This document shows, piece after piece, positions 14,248 to 19,952 of a stretch of DNA of 24,602 bases. Source of the DNA: a virus. The notes beneath the pieces are model-generated. The model was given only the letters and a program-made list of their open reading frames with translations. It did no database searches and was not told the DNA's origin. Made by a program: the position numbers and the translations under genes. Each line of letters begins with the position of its first letter. Positions within the stretch are counted from its first letter, which is position 1. The stretch spans positions 1 through 24,602 of the IMG/VR virus record IMGVR_UViG_3300024518_000270. One strand, written 5' to 3'.

Positions 14248-15774
14248 TCAATAATAAACCCTTTCACCTTGATAGTGTTCTTCCTCTTCAAAATAATCAC
14301 TCGAAAGTGTTAAAAACCCACCTTCTCTGAACCTAGCTAACGCTAAAGTAGTCGCATCAACTAAGTCATCGTTTTCTCCGTTAGGGAAATCAGAAACTTC
14401 ATCCATGAGTTCTTCTCCCCAACGATTATCAGGAACCCAAACACGCCCGTCTTGGAAAATAGGTGAAACAGAATTTAGCCTAGCAATTTTATCTTGTCCT
14501 TTTCCAGGAGAAAAAGTATTTACAGGTATACCAACTCTACGTAATTCTTGTACTAAAGGTAATCCACTGGCTTTTGCTTCAATAATCATCGTATCAGGTT
14601 GCCAATATTCATACAAACGTAAAGCTTCGGCTTTTAGTTCAGGGAAATCAAAACGTTCTTTAACGCAATCTATTAATATTAGATGAGCTTCGTTGCCGTG
14701 GTAATGTTCTTCCCCTATTTTACCTTCAGGGTAAAACACACCCCAAGTAGTAATAGCAGTATAGTCAGCTCTTTCGCTTTTTAGAAACGCTGTATCAAAA
14801 CTTTGAATTAAGTAATCGCATTTAGGTGGCTTTTCTTCGTCCCAGATCATAAACCAGTCTTTAGGTATAATCGAAATACCCTCACCCGTAGGTCGTTGCA
14901 TATATTGAGCCGCCCATTTTCCTGGACTAACCGATGCTTTTATACTTTCGAGTTCTTCTAATTTCCAAAAATTATCCCATAACGGTTTACCGCTTGGTAA
15001 AATAGCAGGGAACTCAATTAGTTCCCATTGGTCTGCTCCAGGATCTTGTGCCATTTTCTTAATTAATCGTCCTGTAAGATCTTTTTTATTCCAACGGGTC
15101 ATTACAATAACGATTGCACCTCCAGGTTGTAACCTTTGTCGTGGACCTGCCATAAACCATTCGTAAGCTTCTTCCATGGCTTTATCAGACATAGCGTCTT
15201 GTTCCGAATGTGGATCGTCAATAATAAATAAATCCGCACCCCTTCCTGCTAACGCACCACCAATACCTGCTGCGTAATATTCACCGCCTTTATTCGTTAA
15301 CCATTTACCTGCAGAACGACTATCTGCTTTTAGTTCTGTTTCAGGGAATAATTCATGGTATTCTTCTCCGTCAATTAAATCCCTAACTTTACGTCCGAAG
15401 TTAACCGCAAGGTCAGCGGTATGGGTTGCTTCTATAATTTTTAATTTAGGATTTTTACCTAATAAGTATGCGGGGAACAAATGTGATGCAAACTCAGATT
15501 TAGTATGACGAGGGGGCATATTAATAATTAAACGTTTAAGTTTGCCTGTAGCGATATCATCGAAAGCCTTAGCCATCTTAACGTGATGGTCTCCGTTAAT
15601 AAATTCTTTCCAAATAGATTTAACAAACTCCATAAAAGTACTTGTTGATTTTTCTTGGAATTCACGTTTACTTAATTCTTCTAAAAGAATCGTAAACTCT
15701 TTAGCTTCTGCCTTACTTAAATGAGAAACGTCTATTTCTTTTAAGGCTGCTAACTTAACTGCGTTAGAAGTCAT
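14248..15774 (-). CDS. terL: Terminase large subunit
   Basis: The 508-residue packaging motor has an N-terminal ATPase with Walker A MPPRHTKS (86-93), Walker B FIIDDPHS (183-190) and motif III VMTRW (224-228). A C-terminal RNase H-like nuclease follows, with SFDTAF (D327), IIEAKASG (E399) and NDDLVDAT (469-475). The length and all key residues are intact. The ATG overlaps the stop of the upstream ADP-ribosyltransferase-like gene (ATGA at 15774-15771). The nearest Met is well placed and the frame includes the N-terminal helical region normal for the family. The small subunit is not adjacent but about 3.6 kb upstream at 19422-19952. Confidence 0.93.
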   Translation of the reverse strand: MTSNAVKLAALKEIDVSHLSKAEAKEFTILLEELSKREFQEKSTSTFMEFVKSIWKEFINGDHHVKMAKAFDDIATGKLKRLIINMPPRHTKSEFASHLFPAYLLGKNPKLKIIEATHTADLAVNFGRKVRDLIDGEEYHELFPETELKADSRSAGKWLTNKGGEYYAAGIGGALAGRGADLFIIDDPHSEQDAMSDKAMEEAYEWFMAGPRQRLQPGGAIVIVMTRWNKKDLTGRLIKKMAQDPGADQWELIEFPAILPSGKPLWDNFWKLEELESIKASVSPGKWAAQYMQRPTGEGISIIPKDWFMIWDEEKPPKCDYLIQSFDTAFLKSERADYTAITTWGVFYPEGKIGEEHYHGNEAHLILIDCVKERFDFPELKAEALRLYEYWQPDTMIIEAKASGLPLVQELRRVGIPVNTFSPGKGQDKIARLNSVSPIFQDGRVWVPDNRWGEELMDEVSDFPNGENDDLVDATTLALARFREGGFLTLSSDYFEEEEHYQGERVYY

Positions 15775-16760
15775 TTAGGGTTTATATACGCTCGTATAAA
15801 ATCATCAAGTTGATCAAAAGGTATTTCTTCAGCTATGTTTAAATTACTCGGGTTTAACGAAAGAATTGTTTCACCTTCTCCTTTAAAATTTCTAGGTGGG
15901 AAAACGATTGAATCATAATCCATTTTAGTTAATTGATTCGCTATATCTTCAGAAAATTGTGCAGGAGTTTTATTTACGCTTCCTAAGCCCCCCTCTAACA
16001 TCGTATCTAATTGATATTGCATTCTTCTAAGCGGCATATTGTTTTTGCCCGTGTCTCTACTTGGTCTAGATATATAATTTAACATATCATCTAATGAACC
16101 TCTAACGTCAGAAGGCATATTTTCTATATCTAGTGTTTTATTGAAATCGGGATTAATTCTATAAGCCGAACCTTTTTCAGAAAATGATTTAAGTCGGGGA
16201 TCGGCTATATTACCAACTGTGTATACACCCCCAGAAGAAGGAAAACGTTCTCCTGTTCTAAGTTTATTTAATTCTTTAGGAAGCATTAAAGTTTCAATAC
16301 CTGTTTTAGGACTCCCATGAAAAATATCTATTAAACTAAGTTCTGCAGCTTTTCGTTCTCCTGGATCTTTTATATTACCAATAGCTTTATCGCGTTTATT
16401 AGTTAACGTTTTAATTTTACGGTTTATTTTATTTGCAGCATCGATAGCAAACTGTCCGTCGCCACCGTCTGCATTACGCATTTCTCTACCGTAATTAAAT
16501 TTAAGTTTTCTAATTTCATCGTTGTATTTAGCAATAAGTGGAGGAATCGCAAGTTTTGCTCCTGCTCCTGCACCACCACCTAAATAGTTAAACGGGTCTT
16601 CTATTAAATCTTTCATAAAACCTGCCGCACCCGAAACTTTTTGAAAAACAGGATCGTTTTGTAATGAAGGATTTAATTGATTTAATAAATCCATTAAAGG
16701 ATTGTAATCACCGAAACGGTTTTCTATAGGTGCTGCAATAGATTCAGGTGTCGCCATCAT
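15771..16760 (-). CDS. ADP-ribosyltransferase-like phage protein upstream of terL
   Basis: The 329-residue protein has an N-terminal half (1-140) with a glycine-rich segment (YLGGGAGAGAKLA) and basic helices (NKINRKIKTLTNKRDK). The second half carries IDIFHGSPKTG (about 145-153), SSGGVYTVGN (175-184) with SEKGSAYRINPDFNKTLDI, and DYDSIVFPP (281-289). It then has GEGETILSLNPSNLNI (294-309). The order HGS, GxY(T), YDSI, E(T)I(L)xLNPSNI matches the fold of HYE-class ADP-ribosyltransferases found in many phage polyvalent proteins, with H148, Y180 and E297 as candidate catalytic residues. No database search supports this. It overlaps terL by four bases, so it belongs to the packaging operon. No Shine-Dalgarno is present (see the leaderless finding). 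Confidence 0.5.
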   Translation of the reverse strand: MMATPESIAAPIENRFGDYNPLMDLLNQLNPSLQNDPVFQKVSGAAGFMKDLIEDPFNYLGGGAGAGAKLAIPPLIAKYNDEIRKLKFNYGREMRNADGGDGQFAIDAANKINRKIKTLTNKRDKAIGNIKDPGERKAAELSLIDIFHGSPKTGIETLMLPKELNKLRTGERFPSSGGVYTVGNIADPRLKSFSEKGSAYRINPDFNKTLDIENMPSDVRGSLDDMLNYISRPSRDTGKNNMPLRRMQYQLDTMLEGGLGSVNKTPAQFSEDIANQLTKMDYDSIVFPPRNFKGEGETILSLNPSNLNIAEEIPFDQLDDFIRAYINPK

Positions 16761-16778
16761 CGAAGTATAAGCTAACTA

Positions 16779-16812
16779 ATAACTAAATGTAAAACGAATT
16801 AAAGTAAAGCAG
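16779..16812 (-). promoter_or_regulatory. Conserved promoter motif copy G (weak -10)
   Basis: CTGCTTTACTTT at 16812-16801 is identical for 11 bases to copies at 23957 and 19375. The -10 hexamer at the usual distance is poor (TTAGTT/TTTAGT). It precedes the ADP-ribosyltransferase-like gene and terL and begins at the stop codon of the preceding gene. It could drive the late head genes; a better TATACT lies at 16769-16764. Confidence 0.5.
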
Positions 16813-17130
16813 TTAAGCGGCGGGGTGGGATCCTTGGTTCGCGTTAGCTTTTTTCTTAGCTCGTCTTTCACGAGCACGTGCGTTAAGGCTATCTTTCGTA
16901 TTCCGTATTTCATCTTCCATGTCTTGCCAAAAGGCATCCCTGAACAACTGTTCGTGGTCCGCGGATAGTTTAGTATGAATAATTAGATCTTTATCTTTAG
17001 GAATCCAATCTTCCCAAAACTGTTTACGTTGATCTGACCATTGCCATTTGATCTCGCCTAGTTCAGGTCTAGCGTGAATGTAATACCCGAATATTAGCGG
17101 TTTGTTGAACTTTGGTACTGTTTTTGGCAT
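16813..17130 (-). CDS. Hypothetical basic protein (105 aa)
   Basis: The start is set at the ATG at 17130 because GGAAAGAAAG precedes it, and the longest frame (from 17181) would begin deep inside the overlapping 47-codon gene. The 105-residue protein contains PLIFGYYIHARPELGEIKWQWSDQRKQFWEDWIPKD, LSADHEQLFRDAFWQDMEDEIRN and a lysine/arginine-rich tail (RARERRAKKKANANQ). Many aromatics plus a basic tail suggest nucleic acid binding, but no family is recognised. It overlaps the small MSKGSKRRK gene by 62 bases. The tail ends in a GC-rich run and copy G of the promoter motif follows the stop directly. Confidence 0.5.
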   Translation of the reverse strand: MPKTVPKFNKPLIFGYYIHARPELGEIKWQWSDQRKQFWEDWIPKDKDLIIHTKLSADHEQLFRDAFWQDMEDEIRNTKDSLNARARERRAKKKANANQGSHPAA

Positions 17131-17212
17131 CTTTCTTTCCGAATATCTTTTCCCAGTTCTCTGCGTACTTTTTGGCGTCATCGCCTTTACGTCGTTTAGA
17201 ACCTTTACTCAT
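17069..17212 (-). CDS. Small basic phage protein MSKGSKRRK type (47 aa)
   Basis: This frame is only 48 codons long. It begins MSKGSKRRKGDDAKKYAENWEKIFGKK and ends in a variable tail (QQTANIRVLHSR). The first 27 residues fit a widespread phage miniprotein pattern (MSKGSxRRxxxxxxYxxNWDxIFGKK) of unknown function. The ATG has AGGGA five bases upstream, and it overlaps the end of the outer-spanin gene by eight bases. Because it overlaps the 105-residue gene in another frame it is easy to miss. I am fairly sure it is real from start context and pattern. Confidence 0.6.
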   Translation of the reverse strand: MSKGSKRRKGDDAKKYAENWEKIFGKKDAKNSTKVQQTANIRVLHSR

Positions 17213-17561
17213 CGTATTCCCTATAATACTCTACAATCGCTAAAACGTTCTTTGTGTAACGGGTGATCTCTGCCATATTCATCGAAAGGTTTTCGTATTG
17301 TTGTGTAGTCAACGCATAGTAAGCAACCGCAGGAGCTTTACCGTCTTTAACAAGTTGTAGGTATTCTTCCATGATCTCGGGAGTTAACACTTCAAATGTT
17401 ACCTCGGTCGCTTGGATTTCCATAGGTAACGGTGGGTGGTACATAGGAGCAGGTAACGCTATCGTATTTACGTCTACAGGTTTTACAGTAGGAAAGAGCG
17501 AACAACCACTGACCGCGAACAACGCAATAATACTAAATTTTTTCAATAAGTTCTTCATCAT
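17205..17561 (-). CDS. Putative o-spanin (Rz1-like lipoprotein)
   Basis: The 118-residue protein has a lipoprotein signal: MKNLLKKFSIIALFAVSGC with cysteine at residue 20 and lipobox AVSGC. The mature part contains proline-rich stretches (LPAPMYHPPLPMEIQ) followed by helices, reaching about 98 residues. It sits one frame after the inner-membrane spanin with an ATGA overlap (17561-17558), the common arrangement of two-component spanins that fuse the inner and outer membranes at lysis. It starts at either 17561 or 17558, since ATGATG leaves two options. The inner-membrane partner is directly upstream. Confidence 0.7.
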   Translation of the reverse strand: MMKNLLKKFSIIALFAVSGCSLFPTVKPVDVNTIALPAPMYHPPLPMEIQATEVTFEVLTPEIMEEYLQLVKDGKAPAVAYYALTTQQYENLSMNMAEITRYTKNVLAIVEYYREYDE

Positions 17562-17941
17562 CCACTTGGCTCCTCCTCACTGACCGTGGTCAACTCTACA
17601 AGATTATCTATTACTCGTTTAGTACCACGGTTAACCATCTTCTCAACAAGTTTAGGTTTGTTTAGTGCAAGGTTATCAAGATCGTGCTTAGCAAATGTGT
17701 TTCTGAGTTTAGTTACTTCACGGAGTGCGTTTTGTTTTTCGGCTTCTAACGTACCAAGACTCGCGGACAGTTGTTCTTGTTTAGCTAAGTATTGTTTAAT
17801 TGATTCGTTTTGCTCGGATATCTTACTTTCCAGGATTAGCTGATTGCCTTTGAGCGTGGATATTTGGTCTAATAAGAACCACGAACCCGCCAAAGATGCC
17901 GCCAATAGGAGTCCTAGAACAAAGCTAATTTTATAACCCAT
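17558..17941 (-). CDS. Putative i-spanin (Rz-like)
   Basis: The start is set at the ATG at 17941, giving 127 residues; the frame could begin at a TTG (18007), but that segment has no ribosome binding site. Residues 5-25 form one membrane helix (ISFVLGLLLAASLAGSWFLL), followed by a periplasmic coiled-coil (about 30-85). A C-terminal part has FAKHDLDNLALNKPKLVEKM and NRGTKRVIDNLVELT, a pattern shared by phage i-spanins (HDLxxLAxxKPxLxExxxNxGTxxV). It overlaps the o-spanin by four bases. A promoter-like TATACT sits so close that the message may begin at the ATG. Holin and endolysin genes are not visible here. Confidence 0.75.
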   Translation of the reverse strand: MGYKISFVLGLLLAASLAGSWFLLDQISTLKGNQLILESKISEQNESIKQYLAKQEQLSASLGTLEAEKQNALREVTKLRNTFAKHDLDNLALNKPKLVEKMVNRGTKRVIDNLVELTTVSEEEPSG

Positions 17942-17947
17942 CCCAAA

Positions 17948-17975
17948 AGTATAATCGTAAAAAATTTTTTCGCAA
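17948..17975 (-). promoter_or_regulatory. Candidate promoter for the spanin genes
   Basis: On the minus strand TTGCGA (17975-17970, 4 of 6 to consensus) and TATACT (17953-17948, 5 of 6) are separated by 16 bases. The predicted start, seven bases past the -10, is the A of the spanin ATG. Sequence match is seen; transcription is inferred. Confidence 0.45.
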
Positions 17976-18007
17976 AATATTTTTATTTGTAAAGTACTTG
18001 CAATCAA

Positions 18008-18194
18008 GGATGCAACACCAAGGGCGGGCGGGTGGGACCCGCGGCTAACTTTAAAAGGGGGGTATAGGGGTTGCTGTAGGGCGTTCTAAGGGCAGGTAAG
18101 GTAGGTCGTATACCTATGGGCTAGGGTTAAGGTTAGGCTAGGTGTGTGGTGGTGGTGTGTGTGTTGTGTGTGGGGTAGGCTTTATTGTAGGCAC
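18008..18194 (+). other. G/T-rich non-coding island (C/A-rich on the transcribed strand)
   Basis: This 187-base spacer between the spanin genes and the 133-residue gene holds no supportable gene. The plus strand has runs of G (GGGCGGGCGGGTGGG; then GGGGGG, GGGG, GGG, GGG at 18057-18092), TAGGGTTAAGGTTAGG-like words, and a TG-rich tract (18141-18179, such as GTGTGTGGTGGTGGTGTG). The leftward transcript would be C- and A-rich and poor in G, as in Rho utilisation sites. Base composition is unlike the AT-rich surroundings. Confidence 0.6.
18022..18036 (+). other. Perfect G-quadruplex motif
   Basis: GGGCGGGCGGGTGGG has four G3 runs with single-base loops, the most stable class of predicted parallel G-quadruplex. 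It sits on the template strand of leftward transcription. It overlaps a 6-bp hairpin (GCGGGT/ACCCGC, 18028-18042). Folding is a prediction. Confidence 0.7.
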
Positions 18195-18219
18195 AAAAAA
18201 GGGCGGTGAGTACCGCCCT
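18195..18219 (-). terminator. Rho-independent terminator after the 133-aa gene
   Basis: On the minus strand GGGCGGT (18218-18212) and ACCGCCC (18207-18201) form a 7-bp stem with an ACTC loop followed by six T. It lies 19 bases past the stop of the 133-residue gene. Confidence 0.9.
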
Positions 18220-18237
18220 AGGATAGGTAGTTAGTTG

Positions 18238-18639
18238 TTAGCTAACTAGTGGCTTGATGCCGTTAGACTTGTTCCATGCATCAAGACCTTTCATCTTCTT
18301 AATGTATGTACACATAATCTTTTGCGGTGTTTGTTCGTACAATTCACCGTTAGGTCTACACCATGTCATATCGCCTTTAGCCTTAACAGATACTTCATTA
18401 ATCTGCTGTACTGTAGCAGTACCGCCAAGGGTATGTATATAACCTAAGACTAGCTGTACTTGTCTAGGGGCTACTATAAAGTCAGCCATGGCGTTATCAG
18501 TTAATGATAATGTCATGGTTAAAGGAACACCACCTTGACCGCCTTTACCTGTAGGGGTAAAAGGGTTAGCACTTATCTCAGCTTTACGCTCAGCTATGTT
18601 AGCTTTAGCGGTAGCCATTTCTTTTTGTTGTTTATTCAT
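18238..18639 (-). CDS. Hypothetical protein, possibly HTH-like (133 aa)
   Basis: The protein has 133 residues: a lysine-rich N-terminus (MNKQQKEMATAKANIAERKA), a Gly-rich linker (PTGKGGQGG), then a compact domain. The domain contains RQVQLVLGYIHTLGGTATVQ, INEVSVKAKGDMTW and YEQTPQKIMCTYIKKMKG. The helix-turn pattern around GGTATVQQIN resembles a small winged-helix fold, but this is a guess. It has its own terminator. Its start has AGAGG nine bases upstream and no copy of the conserved promoter motif. The neighbouring 97-residue protein shows a similar helix pattern. Function unknown. Confidence 0.5.
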   Translation of the reverse strand: MNKQQKEMATAKANIAERKAEISANPFTPTGKGGQGGVPLTMTLSLTDNAMADFIVAPRQVQLVLGYIHTLGGTATVQQINEVSVKAKGDMTWCRPNGELYEQTPQKIMCTYIKKMKGLDAWNKSNGIKPLVS

Positions 18640-18807
18640 AATGAATAACCTCTTAGGCTTAGTTAGTTAGATATTAATTAGTAGCCTATTACCTAATCAA
18701 TAACCTATTATATAACTAAACTACTTTACTTGTATATAAATAAACCTATTTATTTATTTTATTTATTAATTAAGATTTTAGGGATTTTAGGGATTAAATA
18801 ACTATAA

Positions 18808-18852
18808 GAATCGCACGAATCTTTTTTTCTTCCTAAGCGATTCGCACGAATC
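18808..18852. repeat. Two copies of an imperfect palindrome
   Basis: GAATCGCACGAATC (18808-18821) and GATTCGCACGAATC (18839-18852) are 14-mers; the second is GATTCG and CGAATC around CA. A third copy, GATTCGCACGAGTC, lies at 19408-19421, flanking the 97-residue gene from the other side. They may be operators, terminase sites or recombination sites. Confidence 0.6.
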
Positions 18853-18865
18853 TATTTATTATGTA

Positions 18866-18951
18866 TAGAGTAGAGGGGAAGGGAATGGGATAGAGTGTGA
18901 GGGATAGAGTAGAGCGACGGATAGAGTGATAGAGTAGAGTGTAGAGTAGAG
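18866..18951. repeat. Iterated TAGAGTAGAG direct repeats
   Basis: Four exact copies of TAGAGTAGAG occur at 18866, 18905, 18930 and 18942, with shorter TAGAGTG copies at 18891 and 18922. They lie just past the terminator of the 97-residue gene in the direction of transcription. The spacing is irregular, and the complement is pyrimidine-only (CTCTACTCTA). Iteron-like. Confidence 0.7.
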
Positions 18952-18958
18952 CGGACAC

Positions 18959-18981
18959 AAAAAAGGGGACCGAAGTCCCCT
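18959..18981 (-). terminator. Rho-independent terminator after the 97-aa gene
   Basis: AGGGGAC (18981-18975 on the minus strand) pairs with GTCCCCT (18970-18964) around TTCG and is followed by six T. Stem and UUCG loop are close to those of the capsid terminator at 8000-8021. It is 17 bases past the gene stop. Confidence 0.9.
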
Positions 18982-18997
18982 CGTTCGTTAACCGTGG

Positions 18998-19291
18998 TTA
19001 GCTGACAGTAATCAGCTTCTCCTCGATCATTCTAGCTCTGTAATGAGCCCAGATATGATTCGGCTCTTGGACTGTTACCAATCCAGCTTTGACCAATGCA
19101 CTCTCGGTCGAACCATCCGTCCCGATCATCTCACCGACGGTCAAGGTGTTATCTTTCGCGGCAAGTAGTGCCTCGATGATTTTCCCTGCTTGTGGTGGGA
19201 ACTTTCCTTTCGGTGTAGCAATCAAAGTGATCACTGCATTGTAGTTAATTGACCCTTTCTGGGCTCCTGCTTTATAGTTCTTATCTATCAT
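18998..19291 (-). CDS. Hypothetical protein, possible winged-helix (97 aa)
   Basis: The protein has 97 residues with GSINYNAVITLIATPKGKFPPQAGKIIEALLAAKDNTLTVGEMI, SALVKAGLVTVQE and YRARMIEEKLITVS. A helix, a TVGEMI turn, a SALVKAGLV helix and a final IEEKLI hairpin would fit a small winged-helix DNA-binding domain. Function not recognised. It is a single-gene unit: promoter copy F with a 5' stem-loop lies upstream, a UUCG terminator downstream, and palindromic repeats flank the unit. Ribosome binding site AAAGGAG is clear. Confidence 0.5.
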   Translation of the reverse strand: MIDKNYKAGAQKGSINYNAVITLIATPKGKFPPQAGKIIEALLAAKDNTLTVGEMIGTDGSTESALVKAGLVTVQEPNHIWAHYRARMIEEKLITVS

Positions 19292-19314
19292 ATAATTCTC
19301 CTTTCTAGTTAATT

Positions 19315-19334
19315 CTTAAATAACCCTATTTAAG
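19315..19334 (-). other. 5'-terminal mRNA stem-loop (unit F)
   Basis: On the minus strand CTTAAATA and TATTTAAG form a perfect 8-bp stem around GGGT. It begins two to three bases after the predicted transcript start and ends 23 bases before the start codon. Likely mRNA protection by analogy with known 5' stem-loops. Confidence 0.6.
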
Positions 19335-19342
19335 ATACAACA

Positions 19343-19375
19343 ATTATATAACCGATTGTCGTGGAAGTAAAGCAG
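19343..19375 (-). promoter_or_regulatory. Conserved promoter motif copy F
   Basis: CTGCTTTACTTC (19375-19364) is followed 19 bases after CTGCTTTA by TATAAT (19348-19343). Identical for 11 bases with copies B and G. It precedes the 97-residue gene. Confidence 0.75.
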
Positions 19376-19407
19376 TATAAAGAGTCCAAGATTGTGCCAC
19401 CAGGAAC

Positions 19408-19421
19408 GATTCGCACGAGTC
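19408..19421. repeat. Third copy of the GATTCGCACGA repeat
   Basis: GATTCGCACGAGTC directly abuts the stop codon of the small terminase gene (19422). With the copy at 18839-18852 it frames 554 bases holding the 97-residue gene with its promoter and terminator. Confidence 0.55.
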
Positions 19422-19952
19422 TTAGTCCGTGGCTAGTTCTCCTTCAACAACCTTTGCATCCAAAGTTCTTTTCTTAATAAGGTTCTCGAGTCGATCGAGT
19501 ATATCGTCCTTAGACATCAGATCGATTTTCGCGGTTAGTATCTCGCGTCGATCGATGTAGAGTCCACCCGCCTTCCCTCGATGGACCTCGGCTGTGATGG
19601 CAGCGGATATTTGACCTTGGTCCTTCGCCTCCTCCCTGAGGTCATGTAGAGTAGAGAGGTGTGTCTCCAGGGAAACTGCATCTCTCTCCGAGGCTGCTAT
19701 TTCCAAGTCTATCAAGTAGTTTCGTACAACTGGGTTATGGTTTAGTAATACGCTCCCTTGTGTCTTCGCACCCTTCCTGTCCTTTGTATACCCTGCTTTT
19801 ACCGCGGCATCCGTGGCTGTTTGTCCTTTGAAGTACTCTTTACAAAACTTCTTTTGTTTAGAGTTGAGGTGCTGCCAAATCTTACCGTTATCGTCTACAA
19901 ATGAATTACCGTCTTCTGTTGGTGTTAACGATGTGTAACTAAGTTGTTTCAT
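19422..19952 (-). CDS. terS: Terminase small subunit
   Basis: The 176-residue protein carries the Terminase_2-type N-terminal helix-turn-helix: LNSKQKKFCKEYFKGQTATDAAVKAGYTKDRKGAKTQGS followed by LLNHNPVVRNYLIDLE (about 30-85). A central coiled region and a C-terminal helical tail (DILDRLENLIKKRTLDAKVVEGEL) complete the usual length. It recognises viral DNA to start packaging with the large subunit, which is about 3.6 kb downstream. It has a strong ribosome binding site (CGGAGGTAGAATG). The 278 bases upstream, with palindromic repeats, are a candidate packaging-start region, since pac sites often lie in or near terS. Confidence 0.88.
   Translation of the reverse strand: MKQLSYTSLTPTEDGNSFVDDNGKIWQHLNSKQKKFCKEYFKGQTATDAAVKAGYTKDRKGAKTQGSVLLNHNPVVRNYLIDLEIAASERDAVSLETHLSTLHDLREEAKDQGQISAAITAEVHRGKAGGLYIDRREILTAKIDLMSKDDILDRLENLIKKRTLDAKVVEGELATD

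Follow-up and report, generated by a model that had tools for sequence, protein, structure and literature searches.

A conserved, once-per-genome element before the late operon of marine phages: a candidate late-operon control region

Phage late promoters with upstream activator sites that are read by the host sigma70 polymerase are well known from the textbook phages, and the element described here resembles them in that a single promoter stands before the lysis, packaging and capsid genes and is preceded by helically phased boxes. It differs from them in that the start codons of unrelated genes fall exactly on the predicted +1, that a C-rich, rut-like insulator is placed in front, and that a known activator family was not found. 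Intergenic elements doubling as promoters are also seen among the repeats of halovirus HF2 (PMC8707807), but they belong to an archaeal virus, are unrelated in sequence and occur as repeats, whereas the clade studied here has one copy per genome. Rho-dependent terminators (PMC6407284, PMC9160355) are likewise comparable, since they too comprise about 80-110 nt of C-rich, G-poor and unstructured RNA with many YC, but the present region additionally has sequence-conserved boxes and its Rho role is predicted. Finally, the HTVC023P-type pelagiphages (PMC9599517) resemble the clade studied here in genome size (~60 kb) and in TerL and capsid, which are 52-57% and 66-72% identical, and psg01-like members of this group share the core GGG(N)CCCACCC before TerL. 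The element is nevertheless undescribed in the main text of PMC9599517, in which the words "promoter", "intergenic" and "noncoding" are absent, and in the open-access literature searched, where the GGGCCCACCC core is nowhere combined with these phages.

The window, by which we mean the whole stretch of DNA analysed, is a linear virus DNA of 24.6 kb in which almost every gene lies on the minus strand, in the order small early-type genes, TerS, g18998, g18238, the island under study, Rz-like spanins, a hypervariable gene, TerL, portal and capsid (Table 1). At the protein level its relatives are psg01, DSL-LC04, the pelagiphages HTVC023P and HTVC027P and the roseophages CRP-901/902, and a blastn search of 16500-19500 against phage records returned zero matching DNA. 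Relatives were collected by TerL, by the Rz protein and by DNA patterns, the TerL and Rz sets being unbiased. Four near-complete contigs of the window's own clade span 60-66 kb, one of which (G026) has ends overlapping by 127 bp and thus ~61.8 kb of unique sequence; they encode primase, helicases and a PolA-type polymerase, and no RNA polymerase gene was seen in the 20 proteins scanned. The gene at 15771-16760, in the gap between spanins and TerL, is hypervariable, with 27-99% identity among phages whose TerL proteins are 90-96% identical.

Table 1. Positions of the features discussed, in window coordinates
Feature	Position	Strand	Remarks
Rz-like spanins	17558-17941 and 17205-17561	-	start of the first corrected
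ATG of Rz-like i-spanin, first late gene	17939..17941	-	predicted +1 of leaderless mRNA
Module D, putative late promoter: TTTTGCGAAAAAATTTTTTACGATTATACT	17948..17977	-	-35 TTGCGA 17970-17975; 16-nt spacer; -10 TATACT 17948-17953
Module C: TTGCAAGTACTTTACAAATAA	17983..18003	-	mean pairwise identity 0.83; candidate activator/UP-type box
Module B: CGCGGGTCCCACCCGCCCGCCCTTGG	18018..18043	-	complement carries quadruplex motif 18022-18036 and hairpin 18028-18042
Module A: ACCCCTATACCCCCC	18057..18071	-	mean pairwise identity 0.70 over aligned columns; right half best conserved
Rut-like bubble, C-rich/G-poor, with CA/TG tract	18087..18195	-	C/G>=5, >=15 YC per 78 nt
Intrinsic terminator of g18238: AGGGCGGTACTCACCGCCCT + TTTTT	18200..18219	-	
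g18238, small protein, weak g18998 paralogue	18238..18639	-	profile-profile E 1.7e-6, prob 89.9
Two operator-like palindromes: GAATCGCACGAATC / GATTCGCACGAATC	18808..18852		third at 19408
Second rut-like bubble, with CTCTA pentamer array	18834..18970	-	C/G>=5, >=15 YC per 78 nt
Intrinsic terminator of g18998	18963..18982	-	
g18998, small protein, predicted winged-helix-like (weak)	18998..19291	-	pLDDT 81
Terminase small subunit (TerS)	19422-19952	-	

The first-pass annotation had drawn attention to a G-rich island between the lysis and early regions, and most of its description agrees with our re-examination: the 15-base quadruplex motif GGGCGGGCGGGTGGG is present at 18022-18036, the looser set of G runs (GGGGGGTATAGGGG...) is found at 18057-18092, a TG tract lies within ~18141-18179, and the plus strand is indeed the template of leftward transcription, since every gene of the region sits on the minus strand. 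The proposed left boundary at 18008 must however be given up, as it depends on a TTG start that makes the Rz-like ORF too long, and the conserved ATG at 17941 in relatives places the intergenic region at about 17942-18237. On the leftward RNA strand the window's C-minus-G excess peaks at +62 in the 187 nt from 18022 to 18208, against a simulated maximum that averaged 34 and never exceeded 43 in 100 simulations, and the island is the most strand-asymmetric part of the window.

The notion that the template-strand quadruplex is itself functional, stalling polymerase or helicase, is favoured by its rarity, since it is the sole G3/loop 1-7 motif on either strand of the 24.6 kb, where 0.037 would be expected by chance in a Markov-1 (dinucleotide) simulation of the window and one-base-loop motifs arose in 0 of 300 runs. 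This reading is however made highly improbable by the relatives: four quadruplex-capable G-runs are present in just 22 of the 50 elements of the clade and in 19 of 70 psg01-clade copies, and the 18 elements without a type I core (type II or other; see below) all lack them. The ACACACA of the TG tract is in turn found upstream in 7 of the 50 elements, and with such counts neither can be regarded as a conserved feature. Both are in fact missing in close relatives whose flanking genes are the same (L007, L009), so that the suggestion of the two as functional units did not survive the conservation check which the first-pass annotation itself had set, and the quadruplex, the TG tract and the hairpin were all ruled out as the conserved feature by the type II elements and the psg01-like copies. 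As far as sequence can tell, the quadruplex and TG tract are local expressions of C-richness, and a striking quadruplex motif can accordingly be a by-product of strand-specific composition rather than a conserved feature.

What the sequence comparison does indicate is that the island belongs to a conserved single-copy element immediately upstream of the late operon on the leftward strand, which can be divided into four modules, A to D. Box B, with the consensus GGGTCCCACCC followed by C-runs, occurs as a type I form, CGCGGGTCCCACCCGCCC-N-CCC, in 32 of 50 elements and as a C-rich, CCTCACCCTCCGCC-type form without hairpin or G4 (type II) in 16, and the consensus of box C is TTGCAAGTACTTTACAAAT(AAGTCCC). 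Compared pairwise, 25 elements have a mean identity of 0.83 in C and 0.86 in D as opposed to 0.28 in the spacer between A and B, and in most pairs the four-fold-degenerate TerL sites of these contigs are ~0.46 identical. In distant pairs the whole element, its spacers included, reaches 0.54-0.64 against 0.38-0.55 at the TerL sites, and since this excess is modest the conservation claim is carried by modules C and D. Each core motif, TTTTGCRAAAAA of D included, is found once per genome in the four near-complete contigs, and the element directly precedes the late operon in relatives gathered via TerL and Rz. It should be mentioned that the 50 distinct elements counted here are phylogenetically non-independent and that D served as search key, which weighs somewhat against a late promoter, as does the unremarkable RNA folding of the element, neither strand of which beats shuffled sequences (z -0.14). 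A search of Rfam likewise gave a best match at chance level (16.8 bits, gathering 58).

Module D, TTGCGA-16-TATACT, agrees with a sigma70-type promoter at 9 of 12 hexamer positions and has a spacing within the usual 16-18 nt, and this promoter-like sequence is conserved in relatives. The gap between the -10 box and the ATG is exactly 6 nt in 42 of the 50 distinct elements and 34-35 nt in the other eight, even though the first gene after D varies (Rz, MAEE.., MDLL.., MAGI..). Six nucleotides is the textbook distance from -10 to +1, and a gap held constant before differing first genes argues that the late mRNA is probably leaderless, with +1 at the A of the ATG. Furthermore, one relative (L047) has an extra D, without A-C, before a second homologue of its first gene, which would make D a separable promoter.

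The distance from B to D is 74-76 nt in 25 elements and 62-65 nt in seven, with none intermediate, and that from C to D is 26-30 or 15-18 nt. As the two classes differ by ~11 bp, or one helical turn, they suggest that proteins bind the DNA from one side, and contact between proteins at B and C and polymerase at D would fit such a step. Both spacings occur inside one subgroup (L094-like, L126), suggesting that the change arose more than once. We would therefore envisage D as a promoter for the host RNA polymerase, giving a leaderless mRNA from the A of the first late ATG, with modules C and B, and perhaps A, on the same helix face binding one or more regulators of timing or strength. Candidates for such regulators would be the paired small genes g18998 and g18238 just upstream, which sit in the interval between TerS and the island, each with its own terminator. 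The model of g18998 gave VIA Z-scores of 6.5 to the RPC39 winged helix and 5.7 to 7ne9, both below trust level, and Foldseek E-values of at least 0.95, so that its likeness to a winged helix weakly hints at such a fold and is to be taken as a lead only; for g18238 Foldseek gave no convincing match (best E 1.7). The g18998 family is present in two copies in some relatives (L167, L168, L115, L045), and three near copies of the palindrome GATTCG-CA-CGAATC are found between TerS and g18238 (18808-18852, 19408-19421).

The first-pass annotation had also proposed a Rho utilisation site, and this idea is partly supported, in that the window's only two strong rut-like bubbles lie behind its two intrinsic terminators. 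A strict rule, with C/G>=5 and >=15 YC in 78 nt, is satisfied on the leftward strand at just these two sites of the 24.6 kb, the second being another C-rich, G-poor island like the first; a RhoTermPredict-like rule (C/G>1 and six spaced C) was dropped as too loose, since it returned 31 regions in the window. The composition behind the g18238 terminator thus stands as described, C-rich, G-poor and unstructured, and C exceeds G in 49 of 50 related elements, with a mean of 64 C against 27 G per 195 nt in the gap upstream of B, while the Rho function is a proposal. Under a related rule, similar bubbles are found near both positions in three of the clade genomes (G004, G007, G010); G026 has one at the upstream position alone. 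The stretch may act as a Rho-type back-up terminator and insulator, preventing transcripts that arrive from upstream from running into the late operon. We favour, at a probability of roughly 55%, a late-operon control region that combines a promoter for a leaderless mRNA with upstream boxes in helical phase and a rut-like insulator, and of which the island would be the upstream half.

The wider group is less easily reconciled with a late promoter. In psg01 the core of box B, GGG(N)CCCACCC, is found at 15431, 16244, 17000, 17784 and 17839, every copy falling within the TerS-TerL interval, and the rest of the 59.8 kb is free of it. Across 80 psg01-like loci 87 copies lie upstream of TerL, and there are none in the 506 kb downstream or on the opposite strand. 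Some psg01 copies lie in gaps flanked by minus-strand genes with their genome orientation unchanged, which an activator site tied to a promoter does not predict, and a consensus promoter follows within 140 nt in only 15 of 71 distinct psg01-clade copies, compared with 4.9% of random places. This fixed orientation is what a reading as promoter alone chiefly fails to explain, and together with the confinement to the TerS-TerL interval it keeps a packaging, replication or other directional DNA role alive. In the psg01-like phages (L242, L244-L323) a repeated GCTTGTGAACTNTGGGCCCACCC[AT]CCC likewise has one genome orientation and is confined to TerS-TerL (L242:14900-18000), and TTCTGCAAAAATTTTT stands immediately before the TerL ATG. 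A pattern search of the fetched TerS-TerL stretches of HTVC023P, HTVC027P and CRP-902 gave zero core copies; HTVC023P has CATACCGAAAATTTTT(TGCAAATCTTGA) three times just downstream of TerS (L239:4373-4600). The HTVC027P genes gp30, gp33 and gp34, which form temporal clusters of their own (PMC12753301), map between TerS and TerL, and this speaks for the late-operon reading.

The element could accordingly be a packaging start (pac/cos), in which A-C would be the recognition site of TerS, the A-tracts would bend the DNA for the TerL cut and transcription from D would be incidental or coupled to packaging. That each genome has it once, in the TerS-TerL interval, agrees with this, as does the one-sided distribution of the psg01-like core, and contig ends look, counted by eye, enriched at box B (L015, L033, L075, L102, L120, L125). 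These ends are however scattered over tens of bases and could have arisen where assemblies broke in shared sequence, and a precise cos site was dropped on this account. Moreover, the element is internal at differing positions in the 60-66 kb contigs, G026 closes elsewhere through its terminal overlap, and psg01-like copies spread over ~3 kb, which is odd for a single cut site; we consider a packaging start unlikely, if the foremost of the alternatives. About as unlikely is a combined role, in which GGG(N)CCCACCC would be an orientation-fixed TerS-TerL signal across the HTVC023P-like assemblage and a phage protein, either the small terminase or an unnamed regulator, would couple late transcription to the start of packaging.

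Promoter/stem-loop cassettes of T4 type have been proposed as recombination anchors, and the element might similarly be a conserved anchor flanked by exchangeable accessory genes. The hypervariability of the first late gene and the neighbouring gene region, the occurrence of type I and type II box B between the same flanks, and the psg01-like copies flanking small genes are in agreement with this notion, but it gives a poor account of the conservation unless the element already has another function, and the single copy in the window's clade is a further point against it, so that we hold it to be quite improbable. Still less credible is a replication origin or initiation zone, with the GC boxes and A/T-rich stretch as initiator-binding and melting region and a CTCTA array as iterons. 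The element is single-copy and a GC box adjoins an A/T tract, and the window has an array of CTCTA pentamers (CTCTACTCTA repeats, minus strand) at 18863-18955, behind the g18998 terminator, with similar arrays ~700-1050 nt upstream of the element in all four other genomes, in tandem in G007. GC skew however tracks the coding strand throughout and shows no flip at the element, for which reason an origin defined by skew was rejected, no initiator gene was recognised in the 20 scanned proteins, and the position of D is fixed to the base with respect to the ATG.

Overall, the island lies in a DNA switch region that occurs once per genome across a large group of marine phages and most likely turns on the lysis, packaging and capsid genes while keeping transcription from upstream out of them. 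Being easy to search for, the element tells where the late operon begins and can guide the annotation of fragments, and the coincidence of start codon and predicted transcription start offers a direct test of how late genes are timed without a phage RNA polymerase. If the coupled role were true, a single DNA element would serve a very abundant group of marine phages both as late switch and as packaging site.
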